DNA from: Deferrivibrio essentukiensis
Lineage (GTDB): Bacteria > Chrysiogenota > Deferribacteres > Deferribacterales > Deferrivibrionaceae
NCBI RefSeq assembly: GCF_020480685.1
Contig: NZ_JAJAFU010000004.1
Span: 62,001-126,000 of the forward strand
Length of the DNA: 64,000 nucleotides
Reading direction: 5' to 3'
The translations under genes and the position numbers were made by a program. Positions 49,200-51,900 of this stretch are shown here, piece after piece. Each line of letters begins with the position of its first letter. The stretch's first letter is position 1. A model generated the notes under the pieces. The model was given only the letters and a program-made list of their open reading frames with translations. It ran no database searches and was not told the DNA's origin.

Positions 49200-50948
49200 A
49201 TGGGTATGGATAAACTAGTTAAAGATATAATTCTAACCCTAAATTTAAGCATTGTCAGTGAAGTTGATGAGAATGAAATTATTGAGTGTTATAATTTTTA
49301 CTTTGATAATTTTGGTTATCATTTTGTTAAATATAAAGAAAATAGTATCTTACTATTAAAAGGGATTTATAAGGATTTTGTAAGAGTCATAAAAGGGGAA
49401 AAGTTTTTAAAAGACAGTGAGTTTACAAAACTTTCAGAGCTTTTGTCTGACATTGAGAAAAATATAGGCCAAACATTTAGCGCAAAAGTCGTTAAAGGTA
49501 CAAAAGACCTGGTTGATATTACCTTAGTAGATAGTTATGAAAAATTGTTATTGAAAGACAAAATATTAATAAATAGGCCTCTTTCAGGTGTAGAATATAG
49601 TATTTGCAGAAATGACAGCGCTGACTATGATAATCTTTATTTTTTCTCTATTTTCAAGGATATTTTCCCTTTTACAGTTACACCTCTGACAGCTTCAATA
49701 TTAAGCAGTATTCCTGAAGTTTTGTCAGTAATTTTTGCTCATGCAAGCTTCAGAGTCTATTCCCCTTCTGTTAAGCTTTTGTGGGGTAAAGTTTATGGTA
49801 GCTTGAGTACTTACCATATGGCTTTTGAATCTTTAAATGCAGGGGAGTCACTGCTAAAGTTAAATTACTCACAATTTCGCTTTCTTAAAGATAAAAAGAA
49901 AAAGTTGAAAAATCCAAAAATATCTATGCTTGAGATTTCTGAGAATGAGATTAAGGAATTTATAAAAGAGGCTGATGAAAAGGCGGATCGTATTGATGAA
50001 ACGTACATATTTGAACCTGAGTTTTTAGAACATATTTCTCTTCTATTTCTTGCGGCTCAGATGATTTTTTTGAATTTTATTAGCCAGTTTATGAAAATAT
50101 ATGATGAACTCGAAAATTTAGATGATACTTTAAGACTTATTTACAAGACAAGAGCAAAAAGCCCGTTTTTTTCAAATAATGAGATTGTAGTCCCTGAGTC
50201 GTTTGATTTGAGCTCGGGTTTTCTGAAAATGTGTGTATATAGTGGACGGAAGCCATTATCACCTAAAGAGGAGACTAAAAAATATTCAAAGCTTAATGTT
50301 TTTAAAAGAAAGAGGTTGGAAAGCTCGGTTGCAGAGATTCACAAAACTCTTGATTTGAGGGATGAGCTTTCTTTTACTTCTGTGAGGGTTTTTACAAAGA
50401 TAAAGAGTGTATTAAATAAATTGACAGAAAAACTTCTGGGCGAATCTAAAATAAAACATAAAGATACTATTTATTATATTGAATATAATGACTTAAAAAA
50501 TATTTTGGATGATAATTACTACGGTAATATACAGTTTACTTATTTCTTTAAAAAATGGCAAACCGAGCGGTATAAGCTGCAGATAGTGCCATATGAGATA
50601 TTTGAAAAAGATATACCGGATGTGGAGAAAATAGCAAAAGGGATTATTGGTAAGTTGTTGAGTCAGAAAGAGTTTGATATTTTATCATTCTTTCACAAAG
50701 ATGATTTCAATGGTAACTTAAATGATGTTCGTATATATGAAAATTTAGCTTTTATGAAAGACAACTCCAAAAAGCCTATTATTACCGATAATATATCTTT
50801 GCTTTCATATGCCATGGAGTATGCAACAATAAATGAAATACCTGTGTATTCAGGTATCAGATTTCCTGAACTTGTTCTCAAAGGTGGAAACTTTTTTGTG
50901 AGCAAAAGTAAGCTAAAGGTAAAGCTCGGAGACGATTTTGACAGATAG
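49200..50948 (+). CDS. PEP-utilising-enzyme-like protein lacking the catalytic His
   Basis: 582 residues, no standard assignment. The middle contains DIFPFTVTPLTASIL, which resembles the VTPLT segment of PEP synthase/rifampin phosphotransferase-like proteins, a GKVYGSL segment like their RLYxN region, and RDELSFTSVRVFTKIKS...KHKDTIYYIEYNDLKNIL like their dDvFyLtxdEl region. The C-terminus reads KPIITDNISLLSYAMEYATINEIPVYSG, equivalent to the swivelling phosphohistidine domain (vTdxGgxlSHaAIvAREyGIPaVvG), with Tyr537 where the catalytic His belongs. There is no ATP-grasp domain. So it is probably a pseudoenzyme, forming a pair with the ADP-ribosylglycohydrolase that overlaps its end. No strong Shine-Dalgarno; ATG at 49206 is an alternative start. 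Confidence 0.6.
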   Translation: MGMDKLVKDIILTLNLSIVSEVDENEIIECYNFYFDNFGYHFVKYKENSILLLKGIYKDFVRVIKGEKFLKDSEFTKLSELLSDIEKNIGQTFSAKVVKGTKDLVDITLVDSYEKLLLKDKILINRPLSGVEYSICRNDSADYDNLYFFSIFKDIFPFTVTPLTASILSSIPEVLSVIFAHASFRVYSPSVKLLWGKVYGSLSTYHMAFESLNAGESLLKLNYSQFRFLKDKKKKLKNPKISMLEISENEIKEFIKEADEKADRIDETYIFEPEFLEHISLLFLAAQMIFLNFISQFMKIYDELENLDDTLRLIYKTRAKSPFFSNNEIVVPESFDLSSGFLKMCVYSGRKPLSPKEETKKYSKLNVFKRKRLESSVAEIHKTLDLRDELSFTSVRVFTKIKSVLNKLTEKLLGESKIKHKDTIYYIEYNDLKNILDDNYYGNIQFTYFFKKWQTERYKLQIVPYEIFEKDIPDVEKIAKGIIGKLLSQKEFDILSFFHKDDFNGNLNDVRIYENLAFMKDNSKKPIITDNISLLSYAMEYATINEIPVYSGIRFPELVLKGGNFFVSKSKLKVKLGDDFDR

Positions 50949-51900
50949 GTGCAATGAAAATTTTGATAAAATATCTGACTGCCTGCACTCAAAAGAGGTC
51001 TTGTCAGTGCTTAATGAAACTGATGTCGAAATTGTAGACAGGGTCAGGGGGATGATTGCCGGGAATATCCTTGGAGATATGCTTGGGCTACCTTTAGAAG
51101 GTACAAAGGGGAATATTCAACCGTATCCGCCTTTAAAACTAAATGAAAAATGTGTTACGGAAATAAAAAAGATAATCTGGAGTGATGATACTTCGATGTT
51201 GATAGCTTTAGCATTTTCCTTATATGAGTCGGACGGCAAAGTAAACACGGAAAATGAAAGAAAGCATTATTTAAGATGGTTTTACGAAGGTAGGTACACC
51301 CCTGATGGCAGATCTTTTGGGTATGGTAATACAACTAAGGAGGCTTTGATTTCTGAAAGGGCGGGCACTGACAGAAGCTCAAATGGAAATGGTGCACTTA
51401 TGCGCTCTTCAGTTATAGTCCCTTATTATTTGAAAAAAACTGACAGAGAGCTTGATGAGGCAAGCGCTAATTCATGCGCTGTTACCCATGGGCATCCGGT
51501 GAGTATTTTTACAAATATGATCTACACTTATATTTTGAAAAAACTAATCTATGGATATTCTTTTGCCGAGAGCTTAAGACTGGCAAAGATAAGATATTAT
51601 GATATGATAAGTGATATTAATGAGATTTTTGAAAATCCCGTTTTCTATACTACGACTGCCTACTGTGTGACTACACTGCAAACATCCTTGCATGTTAACC
51701 TCGAATCAAACAGTTTTGAGGAGGCTTTGGTAAAAGCAGTTAATCTCGGTGGTGATGCTGATACAATAGGCGCGGTAACAGGTGCATTGGCAGGAGCAAA
51801 ATATGGATTTGACAATTTAAGTGAAGGTTATAAAAGTGCAGCTTTAAGTGTTATAAAAACTTATCCTGCACTACAAAAATTTTTTAAAGGGATTCTTTAA
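50938..51900 (+). CDS. ADP-ribosylglycohydrolase family protein (DraG-like)
   Basis: 320 residues. Removes ADP-ribose from a protein or small molecule if active. The helical fold's metal ligands are present: IAGNILGDMLG, WSDDTSM (Asp83, Asp84, Thr85), GNGALMR, and NLGGDADTIGAVTGALAGA (Asp273, Asp275, Thr276), so a Mg-dependent active site is likely. Start codon is TTG at 50938, with GGAG 6 bases upstream, overlapping the pseudoenzyme gene by 11 bases. The phoH gene follows after 11 bases. No ADP-ribosyltransferase is visible in the window. A 35-residue N-terminal extension precedes the first conserved helix. Confidence 0.9.
   Translation: MTDRCNENFDKISDCLHSKEVLSVLNETDVEIVDRVRGMIAGNILGDMLGLPLEGTKGNIQPYPPLKLNEKCVTEIKKIIWSDDTSMLIALAFSLYESDGKVNTENERKHYLRWFYEGRYTPDGRSFGYGNTTKEALISERAGTDRSSNGNGALMRSSVIVPYYLKKTDRELDEASANSCAVTHGHPVSIFTNMIYTYILKKLIYGYSFAESLRLAKIRYYDMISDINEIFENPVFYTTTAYCVTTLQTSLHVNLESNSFEEALVKAVNLGGDADTIGAVTGALAGAKYGFDNLSEGYKSAALSVIKTYPALQKFFKGIL

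Follow-up and report, generated by a model that had tools for sequence, protein, structure and literature searches.

Gene layout of the locus

The locus described here raises two questions: what a relative of the phosphotransferases does without its catalytic histidine, and what ties its gene to that of an ADP-ribose hydrolase. The first gene, which we name PEUT, lies at 49200..50948 on the forward strand of the window (the whole stretch of 64,000 nucleotides analysed), has an ATG start and encodes a 582-aa pseudo-phosphotransferase of the rifampin phosphotransferase (RPH) type, as identified by family alignment, fold and profile match. The second (50938..51900, same strand) encodes a 320-aa ADP-ribosylglycohydrolase (PF03747) and has a TTG start with GGAG just 5' of it. 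The two open reading frames share 11 bases (50938-50948), as the original prediction had stated. No alternative in-frame ATG, GTG or TTG is found in the hydrolase frame 5' of its conserved N-terminal motif, and the TTG start and the overlap are therefore credible. Upstream of PEUT lies argB, on the opposite strand, and phoH starts 11 bases past the hydrolase end. Promoter and terminator scans flanking the pair were uninformative, and none of the PADLOC models of known anti-phage defence systems matched at the pair.

Homology and fold of PEUT

Searched as a single sequence, PEUT had no match in Pfam or the PDB and matched PEP-synthase-like models of NCBIfam weakly (PRK06241, E 0.0028). The similarity is thus sub-threshold from one sequence and becomes firm once the family alignment is used: 30 of 38 PEUT orthologues match PRK06241.1-3 in NCBIfam (best E 2e-7), and hhalign aligns the PEUT family to 12 RPH-like proteins with a probability of 99.0 and E 5.9e-18, collinear across residues 67-578, with Tyr rather than His at the catalytic site. 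HMMER likewise aligns the family to RPH-like proteins as collinear pieces. The similarity to PEP-utilising enzymes that had been noticed from the sequence is borne out by this profile comparison.

The AlphaFold (AF2) model of PEUT has a pLDDT of 89 and a pTM of 0.87, and a Foldseek search with it returned six RPH-Lm entries (E 9e-11 to 9e-10), with no other entry reaching E <0.001; the next matches, at E of at least 0.1, are mostly ATP-grasp enzymes across about 115 columns. The modest whole-chain TM-scores (0.33-0.48) are in keeping with a multi-domain architecture whose domains are mobile. A viral origin was also checked by fold search, with no significant viral match. PEUT is a homologue of RPH rather than of PEP synthase proper, so that of the layout first proposed, PEP synthase/rifampin phosphotransferase, only the second half stands.

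PEP synthase and pyruvate phosphate dikinase resemble PEUT in their swivelling domain and ATP-grasp ancestry, but PEUT lacks their PEP-binding TIM barrel (PF02896), which was not found by Pfam and is not among the significant fold matches, all of them to RPH, and it carries the swivelling domain at the C-terminus, as RPH does. RPH-type proteins are without this barrel and are known as active phosphate-transferring enzymes. Because PEUT has no such barrel, the suggestion that it senses PEP is without a structural basis.

Three regions can be delimited along the chain, all on the forward strand. A remnant of the ATP-grasp C-lobe (aa ~27-110, 49278..49529) is recognized by partial Foldseek matches (5hv6 and other ATP-grasp entries), HMMER and hhalign. 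It is followed by a central domain similar to the RIF-binding domain (aa ~130-460, 49587..50579), in which E132, P189, S190, D336, D388 and R457 are invariant and Arg387-Asp388 (50358..50363) align with Arg666-Glu667 of RPH-Lm, and by a homologue of the swivelling domain (aa ~471-582, 50610..50945), in which the His has become Tyr537 (codon 50808-50810). RPH-Lm (PDB 5FBS/5FBT/5FBU, 5HV1-3; PMC4844700) has the same domain order, a RIF-binding centre, a C-terminal swivel and the Arg-acid dyad; PEUT differs from it in having no ATP-grasp N-lobe, in the lost C-lobe residues, in the replacement of His825 and in a shorter central domain.

Loss and retention of functional residues in PEUT

The claim that PEUT has no ATP-grasp domain holds for the N-lobe, which is absent, and for the catalytic columns, which are degenerate; the C-lobe itself is still present. 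Where RPH-like C-lobes have an invariant E, Q and R, PEUT (columns 96, 108 and 110) varies without pattern. The sensing of nucleotide status that had been considered is unlikely to take place through the ATP-grasp site, which has no N-lobe and whose C-lobe catalytic columns vary freely.

Tyr537 indeed takes the place of the phospho-His. Among 41 PEUT orthologues this column holds Y in 23, L in 5, F in 5, H in 4, P in 3 and A in 1, and a column so little conserved is not maintained for phosphotransfer; the serine preceding it is kept in 38 of the 41. The four orthologues with His (L037, L050, L056 and L066) have the rest of the donor machinery degenerate, and the residue is probably there by chance.

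PEUT might instead be half of a split dikinase, served in trans by a separate ATP-grasp protein. In HpeHI, CreHI and PpsAB, the acceptor and swivelling domains share a chain of about 70 kDa and the full ATP-grasp domain is on a separate one; HpeH (71 kDa) has the same central and swivel layout as PEUT and a similar mass (PMC12167813). These systems need a conserved His and a cognate ATP-grasp subunit (PMC12167813), whereas PEUT has His in only 4 of 41 orthologues and no stand-alone ATP-grasp gene as a conserved neighbour. A search of the genome for PF01326 turned up only pyruvate phosphate dikinase and a protein of 858 aa, each encoded at another locus, and we regard a split dikinase as very improbable. 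The 858-aa protein (G000:C6:29199-30299; L172:2112-4685) has its PPDK_N ATP-grasp domain in mid-protein, and Pfam detects no swivelling or PEP-binding domain in it.

The acceptor side is differently preserved. Asp388 is found in 41 of 41 PEUT sequences and Arg387 in 34 of 41, the Glu of RPH being replaced by Asp throughout. In the product complex of RPH-Lm, Glu667 is hydrogen-bonded to His825 and Arg666 contacts an oxygen of the phosphate (PMC4844700). Nine residues are invariant in PEUT (E132, P189, S190, D336, L384, D388, R457, D471 and G552), and no counterpart is kept of Lys670 and Gln336/337, the RIF contacts of RPH-Lm. On the evidence of the alignments, PEUT has lost the donor half of the enzyme and retains a conserved acceptor-type pocket, which may bind a ligand. 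The occurrence of such a donor-less form with a conserved acceptor pocket throughout an order points to a use of the pocket other than phosphotransfer.

Distribution and selection

Full-length PEUT orthologues were found in 42 of 46 Deferribacterales genomes searched, the source genome included; five genomes sampled elsewhere in the class and phylum had none. In a profile search of 385 genomes, those beyond Deferribacterales gave partial matches only (E 8e-6 to 7e-3), nearly all of them within ORFs of ~780-1020 aa. Identity between orthologues is 21-33% outside the genus.

For the pair of this genome, dN/dS is 0.10 for PEUT and 0.11 for the hydrolase, and other pairs give 0.06-0.15; values of about 0.1 indicate that both genes are constrained, less strongly than phoH (0.02) and argB (0.01). 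The loss of catalytic residues might by itself suggest a decaying RPH pseudogene, an explanation to which we give practically no credence: PEUT has dN/dS of 0.07-0.15 in four pairs, is full length in 42 genomes and keeps its nine invariant residues, and selection and conservation together refute it. PEUT is derived from RPH, vertically inherited in Deferribacterales and under purifying selection.

In one family (f7; L043, L054, L056, L058-L069), PEUT has purC on one side and, on the other, a gene for a beta-barrel-like secreted protein, beyond which come dnaA and dnaN; PEUT often overlaps the beta-barrel-like protein gene by 8-17 bases, at the position where other families have the hydrolase.

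The paired hydrolase

The hydrolase matches PF03747 with E 4e-50 (171.5 bits against a cut-off of 26.2), and its closest solved relatives in a PDB search are Lmo0067, 2CWC and 6DRE. The first metal motif, Asp83-Asp84-Thr85 (WSDDTS, 51184..51192), is invariant in 13 orthologues, as are D273, D275 and T276 of the second, Asp273-x-Asp275-Thr276 (GGDADTIG, 51754..51765), so that the metal ligands are all retained, as first noticed. From these motifs the protein is an ADP-ribosylglycohydrolase with intact metal ligands, predicted to hydrolyse ADP-ribosyl bonds.

At the N-terminus, all 13 paired hydrolases are extended by ~27 residues around a central SDCLHS, which reads SDCMQK or ADCMQK in family f8. 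Its conserved stretch, NENFDKISDCLHS...E27 (50956..51018, forward strand), is predicted to be disordered and includes the invariant D14 and C15. The SDCLHS tail is absent from hydrolase relatives outside Deferribacterales. The PF03747 fold and both metal motifs are shared with DraG, ARH3, 6DRE and Lmo0067/8ZA7; the paired hydrolase differs from these in its SDCLHS tail, in its constant coupling to PEUT and in having no transferase or toxin gene adjacent.

Inheritance of the pair

Close hydrolase orthologues (E <1e-89) occur in 13 genomes, counting the source genome, and in all 13 the gene lies directly downstream of PEUT, with a gap of -11 to +14 nt when measured from the longest hydrolase start (in L046, -8 from the true PEUT stop). 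None is found apart from PEUT. The predicted link between a dead relative of the phospho-carriers, now seen to be of RPH type, and an ADP-ribose hydrolase is thus a recurrent one, and it is not obligatory for PEUT, which is without the hydrolase in 29 of its 42 genomes. Among the best 80 matches to the hydrolase, 76 come from outside Deferribacterales, and no PEUT homologue was found near these in the stretches examined.

Mapped on the PEUT tree, the pairing takes 3 changes, compared with 11.2 on average after shuffling, and could be explained by a single gain followed by two losses. The trees of the 13 PEUT and 13 hydrolase sequences agree in topology apart from a single trio, which the hydrolase tree leaves unresolved. 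Loss of the hydrolase can be seen directly in one genome (L045, G034), in which an ATG overlapping the PEUT stop opens MNENAEKVADCICSPKTRKILEDMKEE, the hydrolase N-terminus, and the remainder of the hydrolase is missing; this stub (MNENAEKVADCICSPKT...) may be a relic of the former pair, or the tail may have been kept as a peptide. A second stub sought in two f3 genomes (L038 and L039) was not convincing.

The flanking genes vary by family: in the genus of Deferrivibrio the pair is preceded by argB/pcm and followed by phoH, and it is flanked differently in f2, f6 and f8. Neighbourhood comparison found no conserved pathway gene beside PEUT other than the hydrolase. These results support the conclusion that PEUT and the hydrolase are inherited as a unit in several Deferribacterales families, and that the linkage is real and selected. 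No description of a similar pair was found in the open-licence literature, in line with the original prediction; both folds are known, and the donor-less, order-wide form and its combination with the hydrolase are undescribed as far as that literature shows.

A possible interface was modelled by AlphaFold on a fused chain, the natural read-through frame of L044, in which both genes form one frame if the intervening TGA is read (code 4). The model (pTM 0.66) showed no confident interface, and its tail was disordered (residues 590-608, pLDDT <50). Because nearly all of the alignment behind the model was unpaired and only 3 residues tether the two parts, this null result is a lack of support for an interface, not evidence against one. 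It is compatible with the two genes being merely co-located through vertical inheritance and translational overlap and functionally unlinked, as is the survival of PEUT without the hydrolase. Nevertheless, the pair stays intact while the flanking genes differ by family, the hydrolase orthologue is never apart from PEUT (13 of 13) and a new conserved tail arose on the paired hydrolase, and mere co-location seems to us unlikely.

Another explanation is that PEUT has remained an enzyme but with changed chemistry. Its acceptor pocket (Arg387-Asp388, Lys/Arg185, Ser190, Arg318, Asp336, His381, Arg457 and Asp471) would then catalyse a reaction free of phospho-His, for example by hydrolysing a small molecule that bears a phosphate or ADP-ribosyl group, and the hydrolase would perform a neighbouring step of the same pathway. 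More charged residues are invariant or nearly so, at 21-33% identity outside the genus, than a bare scaffold would need, and orthologues persist alone in 29 genomes. On the other hand, the hydrolase is the only conserved pathway gene adjoining PEUT, and we know of no enzyme of the RPH fold that works without ATP-grasp and phospho-His. We consider changed chemistry a real, if somewhat doubtful, possibility.

Proposed role of PEUT

The reading we prefer, at a probability of roughly 0.4, is that PEUT is a pseudo-phosphotransferase that binds a ligand and, in genomes with both genes, acts as a partner or regulator of the hydrolase. PEUT has lost the donor half of its ancestor (the ATP-grasp N-lobe, the ATP-grasp catalytic residues and the phospho-His), and purifying selection has preserved its acceptor-type pocket, including the Arg-(Glu/Asp) dyad and near-invariant charged residues. 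In one lineage a hydrolase was gained immediately 3' of PEUT, often overlapping it; its metal ligands are intact and its conserved tail is new. The two genes then descended together, with later loss of the hydrolase in two branches. PEUT may serve as a small-molecule-binding subunit without phosphotransfer, its ligand possibly phosphate- or nucleotide-like. In paired lineages it may bind the hydrolase, perhaps through the SDCLHS tail, and gate or target ADP-ribose hydrolysis, and in unpaired lineages it may act alone or serve another client. Regulation of the hydrolase cannot be its sole role, because the hydrolase is absent from 29 of the 42 PEUT-bearing genomes.

The coupling to an ADP-ribosylhydrolase in part of the order suggests that bacterial ADP-ribosylation may have a further, new point of control. 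The more specific proposal, that this RPH-family pseudo-phosphotransferase is the ligand-sensing regulatory subunit of an ADP-ribosylhydrolase and couples a small molecule to reversal of ADP-ribosylation, is speculative and in our judgement rather improbable; if true, such a subunit would be a kind of ADP-ribosylation control not described before.

ADP-ribosylation genes elsewhere in the genome

The search for a cognate ADP-ribosyltransferase that had been proposed gave no DarT-type protein (PF14487) in the genome, and hence no DarTG system; DraT (PF07357) had no match in this genome, nor in any control genome. The genome encodes one sirtuin and one macrodomain protein, at loci distant from the pair. 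A second ADP-ribosylglycohydrolase, with 33% identity to the paired hydrolase, is encoded on another contig (G000:C21:22459-23328, L001).
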